The translations under genes and the position numbers were made by a program. The notes under the pieces were generated by a model that saw only the letters and a program-made list of their open reading frames with translations, had not been told where the DNA came from and searched no databases. A stretch of DNA of 55,511 bases, from assembly GCA_934217675.1 (NCBI GenBank), contig CAKQCV010000012.1:1-55511 (forward strand). Reading direction: 5' to 3'. Positions 17,778-52,590 of the stretch are shown here, in pieces (positions within the stretch are counted from its first letter, which is position 1; the number at the start of each line of letters is the position of its first letter). Source of the stretch: an uncultured Prevotella sp. (GTDB taxonomy: Bacteria; Bacteroidota; Bacteroidia; Bacteroidales; Bacteroidaceae).

Positions 17778-17851
17778 GCTTCAATAGCTCAGTTGGTTAG
17801 AGCACCTGACTGTTAATCAGGGGGTCGTTGGTTCAAGCCCATCTTGAAGCG
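17778..17851 (+). tRNA. tRNA-Asn (GTT)
   Basis: A 74-nt cloverleaf. Acceptor stem GCTTCAA pairs with TTGAAGC; the D arm is TAGCTCAGTTGGTTAGAGC; the anticodon arm CTGACTGTTAATCAG carries anticodon GTT; the T arm contains GGTTCAAGCCC. The discriminator is G and CCA is not encoded. It is followed by a strong terminator. Confidence 0.95.
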
Positions 17852-19289: not shown

Positions 19290-19363
19290 TGGGCCATCTA
19301 GGGCTTGAACCTAGGACCTCCAGATTATGAGTCTGTTGCTCTAACCAACTGAGCTAAAAGCCC
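19290..19363 (-). tRNA. tRNA-Met (CAT), probably elongator
   Basis: A 74-nt cloverleaf on the minus strand: acceptor GGGCTTT with ATGGCCC (one T:T mismatch and one G:T pair), D arm TAGCTCAGTTGGTTAGAGC, anticodon arm CAGACTCATAATCTG with anticodon CAT, T arm AGGTTCAAGCCCT, discriminator A, no encoded CCA. It starts with a paired G, so it is not initiator tRNA. A CAT anticodon could also be the lysidine-modified isoleucine tRNA; elongator Met is favoured but not proven. Confidence 0.85.
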
Positions 19364-37734: not shown

Positions 37735-38427
37735 TTATTTCTTGCGCAGCCGGCGTTTATAGCATTTTGAATAATCACACAAGCCACATGTATATTCCAG
37801 TTTCCTCACCTTAGGACCAAGTCCTATAATACCGCTCACACTCTTTATCGGTACCATCAGCGACGACTCCGTAAGATGTACTCCACATGGATCCTCAACT
37901 CCAAACAGCGGGAACAGCAACTGCTGCTGCGAAACATGCCAGCCACAATAGCCCGGACTGAAGCGGTTGGTATGCTTCCAACCTCTGCCGTTGATATATA
38001 TCTGAAGCCAACGTTCCATAATATCGGCTGTTTTCTCTGCTATCACACTTCCCATTGAATCGGCAATAAATACCCTCAGCATGTCGCCCTCTGTTTCTAA
38101 CTGCCGTTGCAGTTTCTCAAAGGCAATGCCACTTGTTGCCACAAAAAAGGCGTATGCCTCTGAACCGCGGAGCTGTGCCGTTATTATTCTTCCCACTTTG
38201 AAAATCTGTCCACATGTCGTCAAGGTTTTTGCATCCATATCCAAGCTGCCGGATTCAGAAATTACAAAGCAAAAGCGAGGACGAAGAATTTCTCTCACCG
38301 TTGCTTTCATCTTCTCTATTTCTTCCAATATGTCATCACCGGGAATGTTATCCCCATACCCCATCTGTATGAACAAATCTTTGTCAGCTATATCAAGGTC
38401 GTCGTATAGTAGTTGTTTCTCAAACAT
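37735..38427 (-). CDS. Stand-alone methionine synthase reactivation-domain protein
   Basis: A 230-aa cytosolic protein resembling the AdoMet-binding activation domain that forms the C-terminus of MetH. The RxxxGY motif that binds AdoMet is present (NRFSPGYCGWHVS), as are the following QQQLLFPLFG and the LTESSLMVPIKSVSGIIGLG segment. In MetH this domain accepts an electron and re-methylates the inactive cob(II)alamin using AdoMet. The extreme C-terminus adds CGLCDYSKC, a CxxCx5C cluster not found in E. coli MetH and possibly a metal or iron-sulfur site. It is divergent from the AraC gene and close to the corrinoid fusion gene, whose product lacks its own reactivation domain. Confidence 0.85.
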   Translation of the reverse strand: MFEKQLLYDDLDIADKDLFIQMGYGDNIPGDDILEEIEKMKATVREILRPRFCFVISESGSLDMDAKTLTTCGQIFKVGRIITAQLRGSEAYAFFVATSGIAFEKLQRQLETEGDMLRVFIADSMGSVIAEKTADIMERWLQIYINGRGWKHTNRFSPGYCGWHVSQQQLLFPLFGVEDPCGVHLTESSLMVPIKSVSGIIGLGPKVRKLEYTCGLCDYSKCYKRRLRKK

Positions 38428-38614: not shown

Positions 38615-39529
38615 ATGAAACAAAACGAACTGAATGTAAATATTGAATACCTGATAGAGAACGGACTCGTAAACTACTCTGACGGAGATATGGTTCTGCT
38701 AAGCAGTGTAGGTAGTCCGCATATAGAAAACACGGTAAGGCTTGAAATGGTGACTATCGTGTATATAGAAACAGGCATGATACAATGTGACATCAATGGC
38801 AAGACGATAAAAGCATACGCCGGAAATTTGGCTGTCTGCCCACCAAATTCGTTCATAGACAATAGCTCAAGCAGTTCCGACTATAAAGGAACGGTAATAG
38901 GATTGTCATACAAAGCTATGCAACGCAGCTTGCTAATGAGCAAAGATGTATGGAATATCCTGGCATACATCTTCAAAAACCCTATAATACAACTGTCGAA
39001 AGAGTCGTGCACACTAATTGAAAAATATTCAAATCTCATCAAATACAAACTTGAATATCCGCACGGTTTCTACCATAAGGAAATCATGCAGTCGCTGTTC
39101 CACTGCATATTCTATGAAATTGCTGCCACAATAGCGCCACAGCTTGAACCGAAGAACAAAGATTCTGCCACACGGCAGGGTGACCTATTGTTCAGAAGGT
39201 TTATAGAGATGCTGTCGAATTATGAAATCACCGACCGCTCCGTAAAGGCTTACGCAGAAAAGCTCTGTGTCACTCCAAAGTATCTTTCCACGGTTTGCAA
39301 ATCTGTCAGTGGGAAAACTGCCCTCGAATGGATTCATGATTTCCTTGCTGACGCCATTACATACAAGCTGAAATACAATGATGCGTCGATAAAGGAAATT
39401 GCAGACTCTTTGGGATTTCCGAACATCTCCTTTTTCGGAAAGTTTGTAAAGGCGCGTTTTGGCGTTTCGCCAAAGGAATACAGGCAACGCATACAAAACA
39501 ACAAAGATGTTAACAGACATGATCAATAA
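38615..39529 (+). CDS. AraC-family transcriptional regulator
   Basis: A 304-aa DNA-binding regulator. The N-terminal half (about 20-160) is a cupin-like sensing domain (METVTIVYIETGMIQCDING-type strand pattern; AGNLAVCPPNSFIDN). The C-terminal 100 residues carry two helix-turn-helix motifs: VKAYAEKLCVTPKYLSTVCK and IKEIADSLGFPNISFFGKFV, ending FGVSPKEYRQ, the classic AraC signature. It lies between the reactivation-domain gene (divergent) and the glycosidase-methyltransferase operon (same strand, 95 nt downstream) and is the obvious candidate regulator of both. A -7 box TATATTTG is at 38588-38595. Confidence 0.9.
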   Translation: MKQNELNVNIEYLIENGLVNYSDGDMVLLSSVGSPHIENTVRLEMVTIVYIETGMIQCDINGKTIKAYAGNLAVCPPNSFIDNSSSSSDYKGTVIGLSYKAMQRSLLMSKDVWNILAYIFKNPIIQLSKESCTLIEKYSNLIKYKLEYPHGFYHKEIMQSLFHCIFYEIAATIAPQLEPKNKDSATRQGDLLFRRFIEMLSNYEITDRSVKAYAEKLCVTPKYLSTVCKSVSGKTALEWIHDFLADAITYKLKYNDASIKEIADSLGFPNISFFGKFVKARFGVSPKEYRQRIQNNKDVNRHDQ

Positions 39530-39624
39530 TTTTATTATTACATATTACATTCTACCATATAGGAACGTCTTTGTATAAACATAAACTGGTTTCCTCTGTA
39601 TGTACGGAACCTTATTCTCGAAAT

Positions 39625-41469
39625 ATGAAAAAGACGATTTTATCATTTCTTGTATTGCTCTTGGCAGCAACCAATGTTTCTGCCGGCGATATATTTGTTG
39701 CGACATCGGGCAATGACAATGCCGACGGCACTGCCGCCAATCCACTGCGCACTCCATACGCTGCCTTGAAGATGGCACGCGAATGGCGAAGATTGCATAG
39801 GGCTGAAGCTGAAGGGGGCATTACAATACATCTGGACAATGGTGTATATCAGCTCTCGAAGCCGATTTTTCTTAGGTATGAAGATTCCGGGAGCAAAGCT
39901 TCGCCAACGATTATACGAGGCAAAGACAAGGAGACATGTATAATCAGCGGTGGCATTGAACTCACGGGATGGAAAAAAGGCTGTTCCGATAGCTATATAA
40001 AGCCAGAGGTGCGCAATAAGGTATGGGTGGCGGATGCTCCAATGGTAGGAAACAGAATCGTGTATTGCCGACAGCTGTGGATTAACGGCAACAAGGCAAT
40101 AAGAGCGCAGCAAGGATCTTTGGGAGAAATGACAAGGATTAAGGCTTTCGACACAAAGACAAGAACTATAACGATTCCTACACCAAAAGAGAACTTGAAG
40201 GATGCTAAGGAACTGGAAATGATTGTGCATCAACGCTGGGCTATTGCCATACTTCGGGTGAAAGGAATGAAAGATATTGGGAATTCATTGACTCAGGTGT
40301 GGTTTCATGAACCAGAAAGTGAACTTGAATTTGAGCATCCTTGGCCTCAACCGGTTATCGATGGGGAAAAGGGCAACTCTTCGTTCTGTCTTGTCAATGC
40401 TCCACAATTGCTTGACGAAGCGGGAGAATGGTATCAGGACTATCCTTCGGGAAAGATTTTCTACATACCCAAAGAGAACGAGGACATGAATTCTGTATGT
40501 GCAATTATACCTGTGCAGAAAAATCTGATTACTGCCGACGGTACAAGAGAACGACCTGTACACAACATATCGTTCGAGAACTTGACCATAGCTAACTCTG
40601 CATGGACAAGACCTCTGAATGAAGGACTTGTAACGTTGCAAGGAGGATTCAGAATGATTGATGCCTATAAGCTGAAGGAACCGGGACTGCCGGAGAAGGC
40701 TTCGCTCGAAAACCAGGCTTGGATTGCCAGACCGGAAGCGGCTGTTGCAATAAGGTTTGCCAACAGCATCAACTTCAGCAATTGCAGGTTCCGCAATATC
40801 GGAGCTACAGCTCTTGACTATGAATTTGCTGCAGGGAACTCTTCTGTAAGCGGTTGTTCGTTTACCGATATCGGAGGTAATGCCATGCTCATCGGGCATT
40901 TCCCCGATAAGGGATTTGAGACGCATGTGCCTTATAAACCGGCAATTGACAGTGATTTGTGCGACAGTATCTATATCACTGACAATGAAATATATGATGC
41001 AGCAAACGAAGATTGGGGATGTGCAGGAATTGCTGCAGGATACGTCAGCAACATCAATATAAGCCACAATGAGTTGCACCACCTCAATTATTCCGGAATT
41101 TGCGTGGGATGGGGATGGACTCCTCTGGAAAGCGGAATGCGAAACAACAGGATTATAGCCAACTACATACATGATTTTGCAAGGCAGCTGTATGATGTGG
41201 GCGGAATTTACACATTGTCGGCACAACCTGGCTCTGAAATTAAATATAACAGGATTGAAGATTTGTGCAAGGCTCCGTATGCTACCAACGACAGGGCTTT
41301 CTATATCTACTTCGACGAGGCCACCGATGGATATACTGTTACCGACAACTGGTGCCCTGACAAAAATTTCGGATATAACCAGCCTGGACCTAACATGGTT
41401 ATAAAAGACAATGGACCGAAAGTGAGCAAAAGGATAAAAGACAATGCCGGATTAACAAAGAAGCAATAG
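39625..41469 (+). CDS. Secreted right-handed beta-helix protein (GH141-like)
   Basis: A 614-aa exported protein. The start at 39625 gives a clean signal peptide (MKKTILSFLVLLLAATNVSA); an upstream extension in the same frame is hydrophilic and rejected. The mature N-terminus GDIFVATSGNDNADGTAANP and PYAALKMAR are typical of the beta-helix glycosidase-like proteins grouped with GH141. Repeats of NISFENLTI, INFSNCRFRNIG, SVSGCSFTDIGGNAM and NINISHNELHHLNYSGI mark the helical coils. GH141 contains an alpha-L-fucosidase acting on rhamnogalacturonan II and a xylanase, so a pectin or xylan target is possible. Enzyme activity and family number need confirmation. First gene of the corrinoid operon. 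Confidence 0.75.
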   Translation: MKKTILSFLVLLLAATNVSAGDIFVATSGNDNADGTAANPLRTPYAALKMAREWRRLHRAEAEGGITIHLDNGVYQLSKPIFLRYEDSGSKASPTIIRGKDKETCIISGGIELTGWKKGCSDSYIKPEVRNKVWVADAPMVGNRIVYCRQLWINGNKAIRAQQGSLGEMTRIKAFDTKTRTITIPTPKENLKDAKELEMIVHQRWAIAILRVKGMKDIGNSLTQVWFHEPESELEFEHPWPQPVIDGEKGNSSFCLVNAPQLLDEAGEWYQDYPSGKIFYIPKENEDMNSVCAIIPVQKNLITADGTRERPVHNISFENLTIANSAWTRPLNEGLVTLQGGFRMIDAYKLKEPGLPEKASLENQAWIARPEAAVAIRFANSINFSNCRFRNIGATALDYEFAAGNSSVSGCSFTDIGGNAMLIGHFPDKGFETHVPYKPAIDSDLCDSIYITDNEIYDAANEDWGCAGIAAGYVSNINISHNELHHLNYSGICVGWGWTPLESGMRNNRIIANYIHDFARQLYDVGGIYTLSAQPGSEIKYNRIEDLCKAPYATNDRAFYIYFDEATDGYTVTDNWCPDKNFGYNQPGPNMVIKDNGPKVSKRIKDNAGLTKKQ

Positions 41470-41514: not shown

Positions 41515-43767
41515 ATGAAACCTACGAACTACCACCTGTTCGATTTTATGGATTTCGACCAGGAACTGAAGAAAGACGAGTCGCTATGGAAGGCATACAA
41601 GCCTACAGCTGTGGTTGAGAAAGACGGCGACATACTTGTTACCGTGCCTTTCCAAAAGCAAGTCCTTGCCAATGACATGGCACCTGACACTGAGGTGCCA
41701 CAAGAGTGCCATACTCTCGTCATACGACAATATGAACCAGGCATTATACGTCTATTCATGGGATGTGAAGATGAACAGCCGACTGATTCTTCTGACATGC
41801 TGCAAATGAGCGCAAGGGTAAAGCGCTCGCCTCTGCATGCTGAACTGAAAAACGACCAATGGAGAATTTCTGACGCAAACGGCATTCTGCGCGCTTTGAT
41901 AAACATGCAGGAACCAGTGCTCGACAGATGGAGCGAGCTGCTTCCTGATCCACAGGAAACTCTCGACCTCAGACTGTTCCCTGACGGTAAGCGCGAGGTA
42001 AGACTGGCAGCTTACGACCACTTCTCGCCACCTCGGTATGACGCTCTGCCTTTAGGCTACTGCAAGACAGAAGGAAAATGCGACCGTGCCACACTATCGT
42101 TTGAATGTAAACTCAACGAGTGTTTCGCTGGAACGGGAGAACGCTTCGAGAAAATGGATCTAAGCGGACAGACGTTTTTCTTGAAAAACCAAGACGGACA
42201 GGGAGTTAACAACCGACGTACATACAAGAACATTCCGTTCTATCTCTCAAGCCGCATGTATGGTGTGTTTTATCACACCACGGCACACAGCAAACTTTCT
42301 CTTGCTGGAGTGTCAACACGCTCCGTGGAGTTCATGAGCGACCAGGCTCTTATCGATGCTTTCATAATTGGCGGAGACAGCGTGGAGGAAATTCTTCGTG
42401 GCTACCGAGACCTGACGGGCTATCCATCAATGCCTCCTCTTTGGAGCTTTGGAATATGGATGAGCCGTATGACGTATTTCAGTGCGGATGAAGTGAACGG
42501 CATCTGCGACCGTCTGCGAAAGGAGCACTATCCTTGTGATGTAATCCACCTTGACACGGGATGGTTCAAAACCGACTGGCTATGCGAATGGAAATTCAAC
42601 AAGGAGCGGTTCCCTGACCCCAAGAAGTTCGTACAAGACTTGCTGAAGAAAGGGTTCAAGGTTTCTCTATGGCAACTGCCATACATTGCCGAGGATGCAG
42701 AGCAGATTGAAGAGGCTCGAAAGAACAACTATATCTGCAAGCTTACGAAGCAACAGGATTCTGAAGGTTCTAACTTCTCGGCTCTTGACTATGCGGGCAC
42801 AATCGATTTTACGAGCAAGAAGGCTACCGAGTGGTATAAGGGATTGTTGAAACGACTGCTGGATATGGGTGTGAAGTGCATAAAGACAGACTTTGGCGAG
42901 AATATACACATGGATGCCGTATACGAGAACATGTCGCCAGAATTGCTGAACAACTTGTATGCCCTACTCTACCAGAAGGCTGCATACGAAATTACAAAAG
43001 AAGTTACCGGCGACGGTATTGTGTGGGCACGCTCTGCATGGGCTGGCTGTCAACGCTATCCGCTGCATTGGGGCGGCGACTCGTGCAGTTCATGGGAAGG
43101 ACTTGCAGGCTCGCTGCGTGGCGGACTGCACTTCGGACTGTCGGGATTTGCATTTTGGAGCCACGATGTGCCGGGATTCCACACTCTGCCTAATTTCATG
43201 AACTCTGTGGTTCGTGATGATGTGTACATGCGCTGGACACAATTCGGAGTGTTCTCTTCACACATACGCTATCATGGAACAAACAAGCGTGAGCCTTGGC
43301 ATTATCCTAATATTGCCCCACTGGTGAAACGCTGGTGGAAACTGAGATACAAACTCATACCTTATATCCTAAGAGAAAGCGAGAAGGCTACACACAGCGG
43401 CTCTACAATAGTACAGGCTCTTATCTTCCATCATCCGGAAGACAACAACTGCTGGCATATTGACGACGAGTATTATTTTGGAGATGACTTCCTCGTTGCT
43501 CCAGTAATGAGCAGCGACAACTGCCGAGACATTTACTTGCCAGAAGGCGAATGGGTGGAATTCTTCACCGGCGACCGTTTCTCGGTTAGCGATGGCGGAA
43601 AATGGCTGAAAAACATTGAAACACCGCTCGAAAGGATGCCTGTGTTTGTAAGAAAGGGAGCCGTTATACCTGTATACCCTGAGGATGTTGACAGCACTGA
43701 CGATATGGACTTGAGCAAGGTGGAGAACATCATTATTGACGACACTTTTAAAGGAATAGATTTTTAA
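41515..43767 (+). CDS. GH31 glycoside hydrolase, alpha-xylosidase type
   Basis: A 750-aa protein with no signal peptide, so cytosolic. The GH31 nucleophile is Asp459 in CIKTDFGENIHMD, the same KTDFGE form as E. coli YicI alpha-xylosidase; the acid/base is Asp522 in WGGDSCSSWEGL. Other family blocks are FGIWMSRMTYFS, DVIHLDTGWF, WKFNKERFPDP, FAFWSHDVPGF and RWTQFGVFSSHIRYHG. An N-terminal beta-sandwich (about 1-300) and two C-terminal beta domains are as expected. YicI-type enzymes release alpha-xylose from small oligosaccharides such as isoprimeverose. It is 45 nt after the beta-helix gene and 24 nt before the corrinoid fusion gene. Confidence 0.9.
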   Translation: MKPTNYHLFDFMDFDQELKKDESLWKAYKPTAVVEKDGDILVTVPFQKQVLANDMAPDTEVPQECHTLVIRQYEPGIIRLFMGCEDEQPTDSSDMLQMSARVKRSPLHAELKNDQWRISDANGILRALINMQEPVLDRWSELLPDPQETLDLRLFPDGKREVRLAAYDHFSPPRYDALPLGYCKTEGKCDRATLSFECKLNECFAGTGERFEKMDLSGQTFFLKNQDGQGVNNRRTYKNIPFYLSSRMYGVFYHTTAHSKLSLAGVSTRSVEFMSDQALIDAFIIGGDSVEEILRGYRDLTGYPSMPPLWSFGIWMSRMTYFSADEVNGICDRLRKEHYPCDVIHLDTGWFKTDWLCEWKFNKERFPDPKKFVQDLLKKGFKVSLWQLPYIAEDAEQIEEARKNNYICKLTKQQDSEGSNFSALDYAGTIDFTSKKATEWYKGLLKRLLDMGVKCIKTDFGENIHMDAVYENMSPELLNNLYALLYQKAAYEITKEVTGDGIVWARSAWAGCQRYPLHWGGDSCSSWEGLAGSLRGGLHFGLSGFAFWSHDVPGFHTLPNFMNSVVRDDVYMRWTQFGVFSSHIRYHGTNKREPWHYPNIAPLVKRWWKLRYKLIPYILRESEKATHSGSTIVQALIFHHPEDNNCWHIDDEYYFGDDFLVAPVMSSDNCRDIYLPEGEWVEFFTGDRFSVSDGGKWLKNIETPLERMPVFVRKGAVIPVYPEDVDSTDDMDLSKVENIIIDDTFKGIDF

Positions 43768-43791: not shown

Positions 43792-46700
43792 ATGTGGAAA
43801 AATAATTTAGAAGAAACAAAAAAACACTATATAAACTGGTGGAACCATAAGGGAATAGTGCTCAATATGTGGGAGCACTTTCAGGAAGGAGTAAAACCAC
43901 ATGCTGACGTTGCCATGCCACCTGCTCCAAAATCGCTTGACCAAAAATGGTTCGACCCGGAATGGCGTGCGGAATATCTTGACTGGTATGTGGCACACAG
44001 TTCGATGAAAGCTGATATGCTACCTGTTGCCAACACGCAACTGGGACCAGGCTCTCTTGCTGCAATTCTCGGTGGAGTTTTTGAAGGGGGAGAGGATACG
44101 ATATGGATTCATCCTAACCCTAACTATACTGACGACATAAAGTTTGATATCAATGACCCTAACAACAAAAACTGGCAGTTGCACAAGGATTTGCTAAGGG
44201 CATGCAAGAAGAAAGCCAACGGAAACTATTTTGTAGGTATGCCTGACCTAATGGAGGGAATGGATGTGCTCGCAGCTTTGAAGGGTACCGACAAGGTGCT
44301 GCTCGACACCGTTATGCAGCCGGAGGTGCTGGAAAGACAGATGCAGCAAATAAACGATATCTATTTCAAGGTGTTTGATGAGCTTTACGACATTATCCGC
44401 GAGGGGGATGAAATGGCGTTCTGCTACTTCTCGTCATGGGCTCCGGGAAAGATGTCGAAGCTACAAAGCGACATATCTACAATGATTAGTGTGGAGGATT
44501 ACCGACGCTTTGTTCAGCCATTCATACGTGAGCAGTGCCAGAAAATTGACTATACACTGTATCATCTTGACGGTGTAGGAGCTATGCACCATCTACCGGC
44601 ATTGCTTGAAATTGAAGAGCTTAATGCCATACAGTGGACTCCGGGTGTTGGGGAGCCACAGGGTGGCTCACCTAAATGGTATGACCTTTACAAAAAGATT
44701 CTTGCTGCCGGAAAGAGTATCATGGCTTGCTGGGTTACTCTCGACGAACTGCGACCTCTACTCGACAATATCGGTGGAAACGGTGTGCACATCGAAATGG
44801 ACTTCCACAACGAAGACGAGGTGGAAAAGGCGATGCGCATCGTGGAGGAATATCAGGAAAGTGTTGAGGAACCAAAGAAAGAGGATAATACTATTCGCAT
44901 AAACAAGACAATGACTCCTGACGAGGAGGTAATGGCGATTATCGACAATATTGAGAACAATGGCAAGAGTAATGTTTCTGAACTTGACAACGAAATAAGC
45001 AAACTGCCGTTTGCCACACTGAATTTGGGCAGACCGACATTGGAGAATGTGGCAAAGGAAAAGATTTTCGTGCTCGACGGCGCTACAGGAACTACCATAC
45101 AGCAGTATAAGCTCACAGAAAAGGAATTCAGAGGCGAAAGGTTCAAGGATTTCAACAGCGACGTGCGTGGAGCTAACGACATGCTCTGCATCACTTATCC
45201 TGAGGTCGTGGCAAACGTACACCGACGCTTCCTTGAAGCTGGTGCTGACTTGATAACGACAAATACGTTTAACTCTCAGCGCATTTCTCTTGGCGACTAT
45301 CACCTGCAGGATTATGTTCGCGAGATAAATCTTGCGGCATGTAAACTGGCAAGGGCAGAAGCTGATGCATACACCTTGAAGAATCCTCGCAAGCCTCGCT
45401 ATGTGTTGGGAGGAGTTGGACCGACAAGCAAAACACTGTCGGTTGGAGAAAGTGCTGACTTCAACAGCAAGCTGCTTCACAATGCTTACTATGAGCAAAT
45501 AGAGGCTCTGTTCGATGGTGGAGTGGATGCTATCATTCTTGAAACTATCTTCGACATCGACAATGCCAAGGTCGCTCTGCAATGCTGCAAGGAGATTATG
45601 GTGAAGAAAGCATACCGCCTGCCGGTTATGATGAGCTTCACGGTGGCTAACGAAAACGGATTCAATATGCTCGGACAGTCGGTTGTGGATTTTGCAAAGA
45701 ACTTGCACGATGAATGTGTGTTCTCCGTTGGACTGAACTGCTCGCTGACGGCTCCTCGCATGGCACCGGTAATACAGAGGTTAGCTTCTGAAACAAATTA
45801 CTATATCAGCATGTTCCCGAATGCAGGACTTCCCGACTCGAACGGAAAATATGGCGACACTCCTAAACAGATGCAGGCTGAGGTATGGCCTATTGTTGAA
45901 GCTCATTTGCTGAACATCGTGGGAGGATGCTGTGGCACCGACGACCTTCATATTCGGGAGATTGCGAAATTAGTGGAACCTATAGAAGGACTGCGCGTTA
46001 CTCCTCACCACCCTGGAACGGGAAGCGGATATGAGCTGAAAATGCAGGTGGCTCCGGCAAACGCTGCACCACAGGAGCACAAACATACACATAGTACACA
46101 GGGGGAACACAAAGAGGAGAAATGCTCTTGTGGCATAGACCATGACGCTGCACCTGCAGCACAAGGCTCTGCGGCAGAGGAAGTGTATGAGGCTATCCTT
46201 ACAGGAAAGGGCGACAAGGCGGCTGACGCTACAAAGCGTGCTCTCGACGAGGGGGCTGCACCACAAGACATCATCAACGGACAGATGATTAGGGCAATGA
46301 GCCAGGTGGGACAGAATTTCCAGGACGGAAAGGCTTTCGTACCTCAGCTTCTGATGGCTGGACGCGCCATGAAGGCTGCTCTTGAAATTCTGAAACCTCT
46401 GCTTGCCGGACAGGCTTCTACTACACTTGGAAGAATTGTTATCGGAACAGTGAAGGGTGACCTTCATGATATCGGAAAGAATCTTGTGGCTTCTATGCTT
46501 GAGGGATGTGGCTTTGAGGTGAAGAACATTGGTATTGACGTGCCAAGCGACAAATTTGTGGAGGCGGTGAAGGATTATCATGCCGACATTCTCTGCATGA
46601 GTGCGTTGCTGACAACTACAATGACATACATGAAGGATGTTATAAAAGCTCTTGAAGATGCCGGAATCCGACAGGATGTGAAAGTGATGGTTGGCGGTGC

Positions 46701-46800
46701 TCCTGTAACACAGAACTTCGCCGATGAAATTGGAGCCGACGGCTATAGCGACAACGCAAACTCGGCTGTTGCCGTGGCTAAAGAACTGATGGGGAAATAA
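43792..46800 (+). CDS. URO-D methyltransferase/MetH homocysteine/corrinoid fusion
   Basis: A 1002-aa cytosolic three-part protein. Residues about 1-360 are a URO-D-superfamily domain of the kind in corrinoid methyltransferases, with YHLDG (His258, Asp260) where MtaA/MtbA have HxCG. Residues about 423-735 are the MetH homocysteine-binding barrel (VLDGATGTTIQQY, ETNTFNS-like TTNTFNS), with zinc ligands Cys650 and Cys713-Cys714 (GGCCGT). Residues about 790-1002 are a four-helix cap and cobalamin domain with DLHDIGKN (His892 as cobalt ligand). The linker 753-790 is rich in His and Cys. The methyl-tetrahydrofolate and reactivation domains of MetH are missing. Inferred reaction: methyl from an unknown donor to cob(I)alamin, then to homocysteine, giving methionine. 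Confidence 0.88.
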   Translation: MWKNNLEETKKHYINWWNHKGIVLNMWEHFQEGVKPHADVAMPPAPKSLDQKWFDPEWRAEYLDWYVAHSSMKADMLPVANTQLGPGSLAAILGGVFEGGEDTIWIHPNPNYTDDIKFDINDPNNKNWQLHKDLLRACKKKANGNYFVGMPDLMEGMDVLAALKGTDKVLLDTVMQPEVLERQMQQINDIYFKVFDELYDIIREGDEMAFCYFSSWAPGKMSKLQSDISTMISVEDYRRFVQPFIREQCQKIDYTLYHLDGVGAMHHLPALLEIEELNAIQWTPGVGEPQGGSPKWYDLYKKILAAGKSIMACWVTLDELRPLLDNIGGNGVHIEMDFHNEDEVEKAMRIVEEYQESVEEPKKEDNTIRINKTMTPDEEVMAIIDNIENNGKSNVSELDNEISKLPFATLNLGRPTLENVAKEKIFVLDGATGTTIQQYKLTEKEFRGERFKDFNSDVRGANDMLCITYPEVVANVHRRFLEAGADLITTNTFNSQRISLGDYHLQDYVREINLAACKLARAEADAYTLKNPRKPRYVLGGVGPTSKTLSVGESADFNSKLLHNAYYEQIEALFDGGVDAIILETIFDIDNAKVALQCCKEIMVKKAYRLPVMMSFTVANENGFNMLGQSVVDFAKNLHDECVFSVGLNCSLTAPRMAPVIQRLASETNYYISMFPNAGLPDSNGKYGDTPKQMQAEVWPIVEAHLLNIVGGCCGTDDLHIREIAKLVEPIEGLRVTPHHPGTGSGYELKMQVAPANAAPQEHKHTHSTQGEHKEEKCSCGIDHDAAPAAQGSAAEEVYEAILTGKGDKAADATKRALDEGAAPQDIINGQMIRAMSQVGQNFQDGKAFVPQLLMAGRAMKAALEILKPLLAGQASTTLGRIVIGTVKGDLHDIGKNLVASMLEGCGFEVKNIGIDVPSDKFVEAVKDYHADILCMSALLTTTMTYMKDVIKALEDAGIRQDVKVMVGGAPVTQNFADEIGADGYSDNANSAVAVAKELMGK

Positions 46801-46897: not shown

Positions 46898-48502
46898 ATG
46901 AATACTCAAAATCTTGATATCCTTGACTGGATAATTCTTGTTGGCTATTTCGTTATACTCATAGCTATCGGCATGTGGGCAAGCTCAAAAGCCACAAAAA
47001 GCAGTAATATGTTTCTTGCCAACCACTCGCTGCGCTGGCATCATATCGGTTTCTCCATGTGGGGAACAAATGTAGGACCGTCAATGCTCATTGCATCGGC
47101 AAGTGCCGGTTTCTCTACCGGTATTGTTTCGGGAAATTATGCTTGGTATGCTTTTGTGTTTATCGCATTGCTTGCATTTGTCTTTGCTCCGCGCTATCTT
47201 GGAACCGGAATATCCACATTGCCTGAATTTATGGGACTGCGCTTTGGTGATTCTACCCGAAATATCTTGGCGTGGTATACTATAGTGACTATTCTGATAT
47301 CATGGCTCGCGCTGACGCTATTTGCCGGTGGCATAATAATACGGCAGGTATTTGGCATGCCGATGTGGGTTTCGGCTTTGCTGCTGCTTGCTATATCAGC
47401 TTTCTTCACTATGTTGGGTGGTTTGAAGGCTGTGGCATATACCAATGTTTACCAAATGGTGTTGCTCATATTCGTATCTGCTACGCTGACAATTGTAGGT
47501 ATTTGGAGATTGGGCGGTGACTCCTTCTCGCAAGGTGTGTCTATTCTCGCCAATCCTGATATCGTGCCTTCCAACTACTGGAACTTGTTCCAGTCAAACA
47601 GCGACCCTAACTTCCCTTGGCTGCCAATAATACTTGGATATCCTGTGATGGGAGTCTGGTTCTGGTGTACCGACCAGTCGATGGTGCAACCTGTACTTGC
47701 AGCAAAAAGCCTCAGCGAAGGGCAACGTGGAGCAAATTTCACTGGATGGCTGAAGATTCTGGATGTGGCTATTTATATCCTTCCGGGTATTGTTTGCTTT
47801 GCTATGGTAAAGACGGGATACTTTAGTGGGGTACAAGTAAATGCCGATGACGCCTATTTAAAGCTCGTCTACGAGCTTTTCCCTGCCGGCATGGTAGGAT
47901 TGGTGCTCGCTGTGCTTACAGCGGCTCTGATAAGCACTATTGGCTCTGCGCTGAATGCACTGAGCACGGTTTTCACTATGGACATATATGTGAAGAACAT
48001 CCGCCCGCAAGCTACACCTGACGAAATACGCCGCACGGGACGCATAGTAACAGTTCTCGGAGCTTTGGTATCTATTGTTATCACGGTTGCCGTGGACGGT
48101 ATAAAAGGAATGAACTTGTTCAACATATTCCAGTCAGTATTGAGCTTTATTGCTCCTCCTATGGCTGCGGTATTTTTGATGGGTGTGTTCTGGAAACGCT
48201 GCACTACTCTTGCTGCCAACATGACACTTACTTTCGGAACGATATTCAGCATTGGCACCGGAATTCTTTATCTGTGGGTTATTCCGGGATTTGCGGAGAC
48301 AGTGCATTTCATGCTGCTTTCTTTCTATATCTTTGCAGCTTTGATTGTCATGATGCTTGTTGTAAGTCTATACGACAAGAATGCGAATGAAAATCATGTG
48401 ATTGTTTCGATAAAGGAGAAGCCTCAACGCAGCGTGATTATCGCATGGACGGCTCTTGCAATCGTGATGATTGCATTGTATGTGTTCTTCAACGGAAATT
48501 AA
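46898..48502 (+). CDS. Sodium:solute symporter, SSS family
   Basis: A 534-aa polytopic inner-membrane protein with about 13-14 hydrophobic segments. The family features are DWIILVGYFVILIAIGMWAS at the N-terminus, then MWGTNVGPSMLIASASAGF, a RYLGTGISTLPEFMGLRFG segment, LTLFAGGIIIRQVFG and the SSS signature region GLVLAVLTAALISTIGSALNALSTVFTMD. It looks like the SGLT/sugar branch. It would bring a small solute, plausibly a mono- or disaccharide carrying an O-methyl group, into the cytosol for the enzymes encoded upstream. Last gene of the operon before a very strong bidirectional terminator. Confidence 0.9.
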   Translation: MNTQNLDILDWIILVGYFVILIAIGMWASSKATKSSNMFLANHSLRWHHIGFSMWGTNVGPSMLIASASAGFSTGIVSGNYAWYAFVFIALLAFVFAPRYLGTGISTLPEFMGLRFGDSTRNILAWYTIVTILISWLALTLFAGGIIIRQVFGMPMWVSALLLLAISAFFTMLGGLKAVAYTNVYQMVLLIFVSATLTIVGIWRLGGDSFSQGVSILANPDIVPSNYWNLFQSNSDPNFPWLPIILGYPVMGVWFWCTDQSMVQPVLAAKSLSEGQRGANFTGWLKILDVAIYILPGIVCFAMVKTGYFSGVQVNADDAYLKLVYELFPAGMVGLVLAVLTAALISTIGSALNALSTVFTMDIYVKNIRPQATPDEIRRTGRIVTVLGALVSIVITVAVDGIKGMNLFNIFQSVLSFIAPPMAAVFLMGVFWKRCTTLAANMTLTFGTIFSIGTGILYLWVIPGFAETVHFMLLSFYIFAALIVMMLVVSLYDKNANENHVIVSIKEKPQRSVIIAWTALAIVMIALYVFFNGN

Positions 48503-48596: not shown

Positions 48597-49607
48597 TTAT
48601 ATTTCTCTGTTATAGTCGTCTAATGCCTTAAAGAAGGCATCGATATTTGCCATAGGTGTATGGGGTGGCGTGTCGCAGCCACTGGAGAGTACGAAGTTTG
48701 GATATTCGCTCATGTTGCGAAGCAACTGGCTGGTATATTCATACATCTTCTCTGGGGTGCCTTCTTTAAACATTGATACTGGATCTACATTACCCATTGC
48801 CAATGCGGTCTGTGGCACATCTTTTATTACTTCTCTCATGTCGCACTTGTTGCCGAAATGGTAGGCTGCAGAGCATGTGGCTACCATTGCTTTCGTGCAA
48901 TGACCTGTGTTGCCGCAGTTGTGGAGAACGACACTGAAACTGTCGTCTTGCACTTGGTCTACTATATATTTTACGTAGTCGGAGGAGAAGCGTTTGCAAT
49001 CGTCGTTCGACATTAATCCTGCTGCCGGTTCTGCCATAACCACTCCGTCAACACCTGTTGCCTTGAGTGCCTGGCAGTATTTCAGTATAAACTCGGTGCA
49101 TTTGGCGAGCAGCATGTGGGCAGCATCAGAGTCTTGATATATCAGCACCATTATTTCTGACATGTCGTAGAGTCTGCCGGCAAGTGAGAACGGTCCGATG
49201 CATCCTCCCAACACGGGGCGGTCGGTGATGGCTCTTGCAGAAAGGAGATTGGCTTTCAGATATTGTGGCACCCTACCCTCTTTCAGTGACGGTACCTGAA
49301 GTGCCTTTATGTCGTCGGCATTATTGAGCAGATGTCCTACGACTGCAGGCACTGCATCTTCGGTATAATGGATATCTGCCCCAAAAGCTTCTGCTTCAAC
49401 GGTGAGATCCATAATAACGGTTGCAGCTGCCGTGGGATATTTATCTGCCAATGCTTTTATTGCCTCATAATGGATTTGTCCGTCGCAGCATGCCTCTTTC
49501 ACTGTGTGGTTGATAAGTTCTATTCCCGGATGGGTCATCACTGGCACTGCCACGGTTTTCTTGTTTTGGATAATGCTATGTATCCATTGGGTCATTGTTG
49601 TTTTCAT
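48597..49607 (-). CDS. MtaA/CmuA-type URO-D corrinoid methyltransferase
   Basis: A 336-aa cytosolic protein of the URO-D superfamily. The N-terminus (VAVPVMTHPGIELINHTV) and GADIHYTEDAVPAVVGHLL match the MtaA/CmuA group. The zinc-thiol motif HxC...C is visible as LHNCGNT (near residue 237) and LSSGCDTPPHTP (near residue 311). In MtaA and MtbA this motif activates a thiol that accepts the methyl group from a corrinoid protein. Coenzyme M is not expected here, so the thiol acceptor is unknown. It is convergent with the corrinoid operon and may act on the same corrinoid domain; the alternative is an unrelated thiol or methyl donor. Confidence 0.85.
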   Translation of the reverse strand: MKTTMTQWIHSIIQNKKTVAVPVMTHPGIELINHTVKEACCDGQIHYEAIKALADKYPTAAATVIMDLTVEAEAFGADIHYTEDAVPAVVGHLLNNADDIKALQVPSLKEGRVPQYLKANLLSARAITDRPVLGGCIGPFSLAGRLYDMSEIMVLIYQDSDAAHMLLAKCTEFILKYCQALKATGVDGVVMAEPAAGLMSNDDCKRFSSDYVKYIVDQVQDDSFSVVLHNCGNTGHCTKAMVATCSAAYHFGNKCDMREVIKDVPQTALAMGNVDPVSMFKEGTPEKMYEYTSQLLRNMSEYPNFVLSSGCDTPPHTPMANIDAFFKALDDYNREI

Positions 49608-50015: not shown

Positions 50016-52590
50016 TTATTTTGCGATATACTTCTTTCCGTTGTGGATATACAAGCCCTTAGCTGGCTTCAATGTCTTCTGTCCACTCAGTGTATAGTAA
50101 GCATTGTTCTCAGCATTTACTGTTTCAACAGTGTTGATACCTGTTGTCTCGCCACCGAAACTCAATGAGAGAGTCTTTGCCTCTGTTGTACCTGCAAGAG
50201 CCAAGTATGCCTTGCCAACAGGAATTGTCTGACCACCGTTAAGGCGTGCGAACTGTCCCTTGTTGTTACTGTTGCATATAAGAACATAAACGTTTGTTTC
50301 TTCTGCTGCGATTGTATAAGCCTCAACAGCTGTATTCTTCAGCTCATTCTTTGTCCAGTCTGTTGTTCCCTCATCGGTTGTAGCATTAAGAGTGTAAGTC
50401 TGATCGTATGTACCACCAAGAATAACTCCTTGGTTAGCAGCCACGATACCATCTTCCACTTTGTTTAAGGTTACATTTGAACCATCACAAGTTGCTGTAT
50501 ATGCTGTCAATCCCTTTGGCAATTTGTATGCCTGGGTAGAACTGAATGTCATCAAGCCTGATTTTGAGGTTACTTTAATATCAGCAGTAGTAGCAGCTGT
50601 GAATTCTATAGTATAGATGCGGAGTTGTGAATAATCCTGTGTTACCTCAGCATCGTTTTCTCCCTTCAACAACCATCCTTGTATTGTAACGTCTCCAGCA
50701 GGAACATCAGTTTCTGCTATAATCGCAGTTTCTTTCTTTCCTCCTTTTATTCCATCTTCATTGCAAATAACACCATTAATCTTTGCAGTTCTCGTAGTTT
50801 TACTATTTGGATTAGCAAATAATATCTTTACATGTCCAGGAACTGTCGTATGGAAAACAAGTTCTGTTCCTTGATAGCACTGATACTGCTTACGATAGAA
50901 ATTCTGAGCTTGAGCTTTAAGGTATTTAGACCCAAACGACTCTACGAATCCTTCAGCATTGTTATAAGGAATAACCTCCAATGGTCTTGGTGAATTGATG
51001 TCTGCATTTGCAATATCTGTGAAGTTCCATGTCATATCACCAGTAACATCCTCGATTGTAGAAATCATATTCTCTGTATCCTCGTAGGTGAAAGGAATGT
51101 CAAGAGTTGTCTCGCCTACAGCAAGAGTAATTTTGTCGGAAGCCTTCTCTACTACTACGTCAGACTGATAAGAAACAGTCATTGTTATTATCTCGTCTTC
51201 CTTTACTTCAGCTCCAGATTGCAACTCTTCGTCTTTCTGCTTGTTTTCAGCATCTGTAACAACATGAGTCATCTTAACCGACAGACCTTTTACCTGTGGA
51301 ACATTAACAGTCAGCACACCAGAAGTGTTTACTGCGCTGAACTTAATTTCCTGTGTTGCAATATCAGCTCTTTTTACAGAGAAATCGAATGATGTTACGT
51401 CAGCATTGATAATAGGTGCTTTGTTGATTGGCAAGTATATAGTATATGTATCTTCTGACATTAATGGTCCGTCAGTGACAATAGTGGTAGTTGCCATGAA
51501 GTAGTTTCCACTTTCTGTTACAGTAGCATCTACAGTTTCATCGAAGCTTTCTTTGCTTCCATCATTATAGTTTCGTGTTGTAGTCTTTGTAAATACTACA
51601 GCTGGAGCTACAACATAAGAATTAGAGAGAGTCAGTTCTTTATTTGCGATAAGAGATCCCAATTCACTTGATTCAATAGGTGTTCCGTCCACTGTAACAT
51701 TTGTAATTTTAACATCTGTGCTCTGTATAGCTACCGGGATTAATTTTGATACTATGTCAGAATTTTCCATACCATCACTTGCAATAGCTATAGCTCGAAC
51801 CTGCTTTCCTGGAGCAGAGAAAGGTTCTGTATATTCTGTCCCATTTGTTTCTGACGGATCAGTACCGTCTGTTGTATAATATATCTTTGAAGTTCTACTG
51901 TCGTTATTTGTAATTGTTACTAAGCCGTCTTCGGTATATTCAATTGAAGGAGCGGCAAGCTGATTGGTGTTGAGTTGGGCGAGGTCGCCAGTTACTGTAA
52001 GTTCAATAGGATAAATATATTTAGATTTATTGTTTAACCAATAATAAACATTCACATATATAACACCACTAACTTCAAGATCTAAACCGGATGAAAAATC
52101 AACTCCTGTTGCAGAAGACTTATCATAATTAGTTGTTGTTATATCTGAGCTTTTAAAAAGTTCATTAGTACCATCAGAAACAACAATACGATACGACATG
52201 TTGGTACTTAATGCAAATTTTCCCGTAATCTTATTCAGATTGATTTTGTATCCGTTAGGAATTGTTATCTTATTGCCAAAATAACATTTTTCATTAAACT
52301 CCGAAATTCCGTTTTTACCATCAAAAGTTGTCCTGTAAGACTCTATTTTTGTGTTTAATGTTGTACCCTTATATTTACAAGCTTTATCAGATCCTTTTCC
52401 TGTATATTCATCACCTTTAACAAATTCCACGACAACACCTTCTGACGTAACTGTTGTATACTCATCTGCAACAGAAGCAGGAACGCTAATATCAAGTTTT
52501 CTTCCCACCGTCACTTCATCCGCATGCACATACCCCCCCTGTCGTAACAATCATCACGAGCAGAGCCAATAGACTAAAAAATCTTTTCAT
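50016..52590 (-). CDS. Large secreted beta-rich protein, frameshifted in signal peptide
   Basis: The open frame from 52550 (TTG) encodes 844 aa, but the natural start is the ATG at 52588-52590, whose signal peptide (MKRFFSLLALLVMIVTT) runs out of frame at a tract of seven G (52533-52539). With six G the frame is continuous, giving about 857 aa with cleavage after VHA. Domains: an Ig/jelly-roll region (about 30-190), a chitobiase/hexosaminidase C-terminal-like module near 215-260 (IYYTTDGTDPSE), beta domains with a WNFTD segment (about 520), and a C-terminal GLYIHNGKKYIAK tail. Surface glycan binding is plausible. The frameshift may be phase variation or sequence error. Confidence 0.8.
52533..52539 (-). 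repeat. G7 homopolymer in signal-peptide coding region
   Basis: Seven consecutive G on the coding strand at codons 18-20 of the gene starting at 52590. The tract length decides whether the signal peptide is in frame with the 844-aa body (six, on) or not (seven, off). Confidence 0.8.

Follow-up and report, generated by a model that had tools for sequence, protein, structure and literature searches.

The closest described counterparts of the system considered here, a 1002-amino-acid (aa) fusion protein encoded in DNA of an uncultured Prevotella sp. (GCA_934217675.1, contig CAKQCV010000012.1, positions 1-55,511, forward strand; this whole 55,511-nucleotide stretch is called the window), are MetH, the MtaA/UROD methyltransferases, the MtgBCD(E) system, core-MetE and the BT_0338-BT_0343 gene group of Bacteroides thetaiotaomicron. 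CmuA and the O-demethylases are corrinoid methyltransferases of the MtaA/UROD superfamily; members such as MtaA and Mlp share with the fusion the UROD fold and the predicted transfer between corrinoid and substrate, whereas the fusion carries H-x-D instead of H-x-C, is too divergent in this domain for Pfam and NCBIfam models, and is joined to a corrinoid module and an acceptor. MetH and the fusion locus have in common a homocysteine barrel with three zinc cysteines, a corrinoid module and a PF02965-type reactivation component (here a separate protein), but the fusion lacks the methyl-tetrahydrofolate domain and has a UROD-fold N-terminal domain in its place. The fusion scores 499.9 bits on the MetH model TIGR02082, below the curated cut-off of 1010.85, and 205.1 bits on the methylamine corrinoid model TIGR02370, under the cut-off of 215.3 and so not a member by score; the most economical reading is that it works like MetH with another donor, although neither its model score nor its domain content qualifies it as a MetH. 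As reported for Ruegeria, MtgBCD(E) likewise ties demethylation of a methylated nutrient to methionine synthesis via a common corrinoid protein (PMC12478193), but with separate proteins, glycine betaine as donor via a pfam06253 protein, and a bidirectional MtgD (PMC12478193). Core-MetE methionine synthase is described as methylating homocysteine from methylcobalamin and not from folate (PMC7005905), a feature we ascribe to the fusion too; core-MetE is, however, a MetE-type enzyme, and the fusion has no MetE-type Pfam domain (PF01717 absent).

On balance, we favor the view that this single chain combines a corrinoid-dependent O-demethylase with a methionine synthase and draws its methyl groups from O-methyl sugars, of which 2-O-methyl-xylose is the likeliest. 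The proposal is built on the domains, the predicted N-domain fold, conserved residues, gene neighborhood, co-occurrence and the failure to find folate-branch genes in some carriers. Its parts differ in strength: the fusion very probably moves a methyl group from a folate-independent donor to homocysteine, the donor is probably an O-methyl sugar, and 2-O-methyl-xylose as that sugar, free or in a disaccharide, is about an even call. The fusion and its parts are as follows.

43792..46800, forward strand: three-domain fusion protein, 1002 aa (open reading frame and Pfam domains; homologues of like architecture)
43792..44874, forward strand: N-terminal UROD-fold domain, putatively the methyl-donor side, residues 1-361 (structure model, conserved H258/D260)
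44563-44571, forward strand: His258-x-Asp260 of the N-terminal domain
45070..45975, forward strand: homocysteine S-methyltransferase barrel, residues 427-728, zinc Cys650/713/714 (PF02574, E 9.8e-81)
46174..46770, forward strand: corrinoid-binding module, residues 795-993 (PF02607 and PF02310)
Within that module, forward strand: helical cap 795-868 and Rossmann part 880-993, with His892 at 46465-46467

The frame is unbroken, and Pfam searches of the chain found no pterin-binding (methyl-tetrahydrofolate) domain (E<=0.001) and no MetH activation domain. A scan of a genome collection, from which the best 80 of 170 relatives were used, gave 79 loci with a readable N-domain frame, comprising 62 with the three-domain form, three cut by contig ends and 14 with a two-domain form. 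When the window protein was aligned with the 62 complete fusions, leaving aside the three cut ones, Cys650, Cys713, Cys714 and His892 were invariant (63/63), as was H258-x-D260, which also held in 21/21 diverse N-domains down to 60% identity. Mean column conservation among the 63 fusions was 0.92 for the N-domain, 0.86 for the corrinoid module and 0.71 for the homocysteine barrel, the lowest of the three domains, with the linkers at about 0.5. An insert near residue 40 of the N-domain was seen in three fusion genomes (G198, G241 and G287). The three-domain architecture was common to the 120 matches listed of 4636 homologues, which together with the 62 of 79 loci rules out an assembly chimera.

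These results confirm what an earlier note on this DNA, made from the sequence alone, had described: a single 1002-aa frame with URO-D-type, MetH-type homocysteine and cobalamin domains, intact zinc cysteines 650/713/714 and DLHDIG histidine (His892), and no methyl-tetrahydrofolate domain. Its statement that the reactivation domain is missing holds for the fusion chain, but a PF02965 homologue is encoded separately at 37735-38427 on the reverse strand. The search for the same domain order elsewhere that it had proposed is answered by the 120 matches listed; the structure prediction it had also proposed returned a UROD fold for the N-domain alone, while the full-length model was too weak to give a domain arrangement.

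Residues 1-361 match no Pfam family (PF01208 included) and no NCBIfam family at E<=1, yet a model of this domain built with 20 relatives forms a UROD barrel (predicted local distance difference test score, pLDDT, 89.8), as the note had supposed, and is best matched by methylcobalamin:coenzyme M methyltransferase MtaA and uroporphyrinogen decarboxylases. At the motif where a thiol-type MtaA-like protein encoded nearby has H-x-C, the N-domain has H-x-D. Thiol-type members of the UROD superfamily are reported to use His-Cys-Cys, and its O-methyltransferases to have carboxylates or non-coordinating residues in place of one or both cysteines (PMC10418091). Because of this swap, the H-x-D motif points to an oxygen-bound methyl group as the donor. 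By counting the last barrel strands, D337 (or E335) would lie opposite the third cysteine ligand; D337 varies among the 63 fusions while being invariant across the 21-row alignment, and the reverse holds for E335, so neither was adopted as a third metal ligand.

The fusion lies in a row of genes separated by 24 to 187 bases, in the order reactivation gene (reverse strand), AraC regulator, GH141, GH31, fusion, SSF symporter and MtaA-like gene (reverse strand).

37735..38427, reverse strand: separate reactivation protein, 230 aa, homologue of the MetH activation domain (PF02965, E 2.6e-14; PDB 1j6r, E 2e-5)
38615..39529, forward strand: AraC-type regulator (PF12833, E 4e-17)
39571..41469, forward strand: GH141 glycosidase (5mqp, BT_1002, E 6.8e-158 over 36-629)
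41515..43767, forward strand: GH31 glycosidase, alpha-xylosidase group (5f7c, 1414 bits; alpha-xylosidase model)
46898..48502, forward strand: sodium:solute symporter, SSF (PF00474, E 1.9e-59)
48597..49607, reverse strand: second UROD-type methyltransferase, MtaA-like (PF01208, E 9.7e-57; 4ay7, E 6e-19)

The GH141 protein is a full-length homologue of BT_1002 (5mqp) with the catalytic aspartate pair aligned, the numbering having been matched by hand on the assumption that the crystallized chain starts with five additional residues. The closest PDB entry to the GH31 protein is 5f7c, named 'Alpha-glucosidase', which we take to be BT_0339; the best-scoring model for the GH31 protein is an alpha-xylosidase (475 bits, below the cut-off of 606). 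Judged by eye, a signal-like stretch starts at an internal methionine of the GH141 frame, which is listed from TTG, and the GH31 protein has no signal-like N-terminus, a combination consistent with the symporter importing a disaccharide that is then cleaved inside the cell. BT_1002 is reported to release 2-O-methyl-xylose-alpha-1,3-fucose from side chain A of rhamnogalacturonan II (RG-II) (PMC10154630). The earlier note named no substrate; the neighbors, a BT_1002 homologue, a GH31 enzyme and a symporter, point to the O-methyl sugars of RG-II as methyl donor. By chemical reasoning, a methyl group at C2 would block isomerization of xylose or fucose, and demethylation ahead of catabolism therefore makes sense.

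The same neighbors recur across relatives. Among the 79 loci, many of them short or cut so that absent neighbors mean little, GH31 was found at 57, GH141 at 54, SSF at 50, the MtaA-like gene at 49 and the reactivation gene at 46; GH141, GH31 and SSF were all present in 32 of 40 loci of at least 19 kb. In a family sample of 298 genomes, 31 carried the N-domain: 12 in fused form, 14 in proteins of ~600 aa (one in split frames) and five as a separate gene, the latter two classes being assigned by frame length. All 31 carriers had a GH141 match at E<1e-100, versus 5 of 35 examined among the 267 non-carriers; at E<=0.001, 11 of these 35 had a match, one of them split (9e-77). A GH141 copy of the 40-45% identity class, defined by identity to the window GH141 and not by comparison with BT_1002, was present in 28/31 carriers (Fisher 4e-10 for 28/31 versus 5/35, kinship ignored).

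The methionine genes of carriers bear on the acceptor side. We used MetA (PF04204), MetF (PF02219), MetE (PF08267 and PF01717) and the homocysteine barrel (PF02574) as markers. Twenty genomes taken from the loci formed a first sample (16 fusion, four two-domain): three of the fusion genomes (G003, G011, G013) had MetA and no MetF, MetE or PF02574 protein besides the fusion, and the remaining 13 had MetF and a second PF02574 protein, while all four two-domain genomes had MetF together with a PF02574 frame as long as MetH (915-928 aa). MetA was present in 19/20 of these genomes; it was not found in G007, which has a weak partial PF01717 match. In the 298-genome sample, MetF was not found in 5/12 fused, 0/14 two-domain and 0/5 separate carriers and in 30/267 non-carriers, 15 of these 35 MetF-lacking genomes (including carriers G241 and G283) being identified by deduction from list gaps. 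The five MetF-less fused carriers all have MetA, show PF02574 only in the fusion and give no PF01717 match. In each of the other seven fused carriers MetF is accompanied by a second PF02574 protein, and two of them (G038, G057) also have a full-length MetE match. In both samples combined, 7/26 fused carriers have MetA with no MetF, MetH or MetE found. The direct route to methionine bypassing folate that the earlier note had drawn from the domain order is, with the domains, the H-x-D motif, the conserved neighbors and the fact that some carriers lack the folate branch, well supported genomically.

Our proposed mechanism would run as follows. A GH141 enzyme outside the cytoplasm would free a methylated sugar from RG-II, most likely 2-O-methyl-xylose-alpha-1,3-fucose; the symporter would import it and a cytoplasmic GH31 enzyme would split the disaccharide. 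The UROD-fold N-domain would then activate the methyl-ether oxygen through a metal on His/carboxylate ligands, passing the methyl group to Co(I), and the zinc barrel would transfer it from methyl-cobalt to homocysteine to give methionine. The demethylated sugar would enter catabolism, and the separate PF02965 protein would reactivate oxidized cobalt. We infer the metal ligands, the substrate, the direction, the cellular location of the enzymes and all catalytic steps. In its fullest form, the methyl group of RG-II 2-O-methyl-xylose would pass to cobalamin and on to homocysteine on one polypeptide, which in several Prevotella-type bacteria that have lost MetF and MetH would be the sole methionine synthase, with pectin supplying the methionine methyl; this version we hold tentatively, at slightly worse than even chances.

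Several observations weigh against this proposal. On the structural side, the full-length model is weak (pLDDT 70.6; predicted template modeling score 0.44) and does not show either barrel reaching the cobalamin. The metal ligands could not be mapped: profile comparison of the N-domain with the MtaA-like neighbor gave no relation, and three MAFFT modes applied to the same pair disagree on the ligand positions.

The neighbors are also not uniform, with GH106/GH78 at L017, GH78 and a DHDPS-like gene at L050, and a sugar-acid kinase and BKACE gene at L048. Together with an L-fucose isomerase adjoining the fusion in L066, these genes speak for the same chemistry on a different donor, namely 2-O-methyl-fucose (RG-II side chain B), 4-O-methyl-glucuronate, methanol from pectin esters, or several methyl ethers. 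The fucose isomerase of L066 counts in favor of the preferred reading as well. Bacteroides thetaiotaomicron lends this alternative further weight: it is reported to cleave 21/22 RG-II linkages, sparing 2-O-methyl-xylose-alpha-1,3-fucose, which accumulates (PMC7939467). As this species also has a GH141 (BT_0338; PMC8264420) and an alpha-xylosidase (BT_0339; PMC10434189) by published account, either its locus is not expressed under those conditions or it acts on something other than the disaccharide. However, no other neighbor counted is as common as GH141 and GH31, and GH141 occurs elsewhere in 13/14 genomes whose fusion locus shows none adjacent; we consider a different donor unlikely, although it is the foremost rival to 2-O-methyl-xylose.

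The B. thetaiotaomicron genes have also been given another label. BT_0340, BT_0342 and BT_0343 are listed as Mta B12-binding proteins, and in the same source a B12 probe captured four known groups, the Mta group not being one of them (PMC8941943). BT_0338-BT_0343 resemble the window locus in that genes for GH141, an alpha-xylosidase and B12-binding proteins share one run of locus numbers, and differ from it in being labeled methylamine/trimethylamine; judging by its relatives, this group probably encodes the two-domain form without a homocysteine barrel. Searching open-licence literature by locus tags, we found no paper giving a substrate for the BT_0336 to BT_0342 genes. A methylamine-type system as labeled would fit a corrinoid domain scoring just below the TIGR02370 cut-off, but an N-domain with a UROD fold, unmatched by NCBIfam, and neighbors that include glycosidases and a symporter make it highly improbable for the window locus.

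The two-domain form is itself a difficulty for an O-demethylase-methionine synthase, since another acceptor must serve where the homocysteine barrel is lacking. The barrel could then serve as acceptor only secondarily or conditionally, and most methyl groups would go to the substrate of the MtaA-like neighbor (a thiol, or folate via another enzyme) in a system that mainly unlocks sugar carbon. Several of the split and two-domain loci without a barrel indeed retain the MtaA-like gene, whose product keeps H229-x-C231 and C311 invariant in 10/10 aligned proteins, and the barrel is the least conserved domain of the fusion. The zinc cysteines, however, are kept in every full-length fusion, and some fusion carriers have no detected MetF, MetH or MetE; we regard a secondary role for the barrel as quite improbable. 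The thiol-type MtaA-like gene is retained beside the fusion in the window although the fusion has its own acceptor barrel.

Finally, MetA without MetF, PF02574 or full MetE also occurs in 12/267 non-carriers, and such genes alone thus do not require the fusion; the pattern is enriched in fused carriers (5/12, Fisher 3e-4, kinship ignored) without being exclusive to them. On the gene tree the folate-branch state takes four changes by parsimony, but well-supported branches force only two MetF-state changes. Carriers without MetF, MetH and MetE might be methionine auxotrophs or incomplete assemblies whose methionine supply has nothing to do with the fusion, and their genome completeness is not given. 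MetF and a second PF02574 protein are, however, absent together in 7/26 fused carriers and present together in 19/26, MetA is kept in all seven, and two of these carriers are named isolates (L003, L034), which leaves auxotrophy or incompleteness a rather poor explanation. Xylanibacter rarus is one of the carriers without MetF and MetH. The 12 non-carriers (e.g., G196, G279) are of interest in their own right, as another methionine route may exist in the family.

Relatives of the fusion also indicate how it may have arisen. Five loci of the family sample have N-domain and corrinoid genes separate (L111-L115), and L115 has GH31, N-domain, SSF, corrinoid protein, MtaA-like and reactivation genes in a row. 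Loci labeled Bacteroides or Phocaeicola encode a two-domain protein of ~600 aa in 12/13 cases (the exception is L016), and most Prevotella-type records show the three-domain form. In a gene tree built from the N-domain and corrinoid module (53/84 rows with fused ones thinned, quick method, outgroup L115 author-chosen and on a long branch), the three states need four changes and the split form is outermost. A second tree compared 33 fusion barrels (thinned from 64) with 17 MetH barrels of the same genomes; one branch (Shimodaira-Hasegawa approximate likelihood-ratio test 100) separates fusion from MetH barrels, which fits a single gain of the homocysteine barrel. These data agree with a stepwise origin, in which a split sugar-demethylase system was fused to its corrinoid protein before a homocysteine barrel was added; the opposite picture in the earlier note, of a MetH with its folate domain replaced, probably has the direction wrong. 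L036 and L072 lie inside the fused group on the tree, yet have linkers without a barrel. The former is labeled as a Paenibacillus metagenome-assembled genome, but its gene order and sequence match Bacteroidales loci and it is probably a mislabeled bin. In G276, the N-domain on contig C1 is divided between two frames and may be a decayed copy.

Among the open-licence papers listed by our searches, none reported the three-domain enzyme or corrinoid sugar demethylation. The locus family is already in the literature under the label Mta, but these searches did not turn up the methyl-sugar link, the three-domain form or the missing folate branch. If correct, our proposal would describe a methionine synthase that needs no folate and unites substrate side, carrier and acceptor in one polypeptide, and would tie together vitamin B12, pectin use and methionine supply in common gut genera. 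It would also give a better reading of a locus labeled methylamine Mta so far, and a fate for the 2-O-methyl sugars of RG-II, whose 2-O-methyl-xylose-fucose link is reportedly left by B. thetaiotaomicron as its only uncleaved RG-II bond (PMC7939467).

No riboswitch was found in the window at Rfam gathering scores, which returned only two tRNAs, and a search of IMG/VR viral contigs with the N-domain gave nothing matching the peptide patterns. Beside the locus and elsewhere in the window lie the following.

50016-52550, reverse strand: 844-aa protein with Fn3_assoc and CHB_HEX_C_1 domains (Pfam), beside the locus
17778-17851, forward strand: tRNA gene (Rfam)
19290-19363, reverse strand: tRNA gene (Rfam)

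In the separate reactivation protein, the PF02965 match covers profile positions 121-265 of 273, the latter half of the MetH activation domain, and the R-x-S-P-G-Y stretch is retained with a C-terminal C-x2-C-x4-C added. We know of no iron-sulfur centre in MetH activation domains. Cys161, 214, 217 and 222 are invariant in 12/12 aligned proteins (the window and 11 relatives), which suggests that this protein may hold such a centre.

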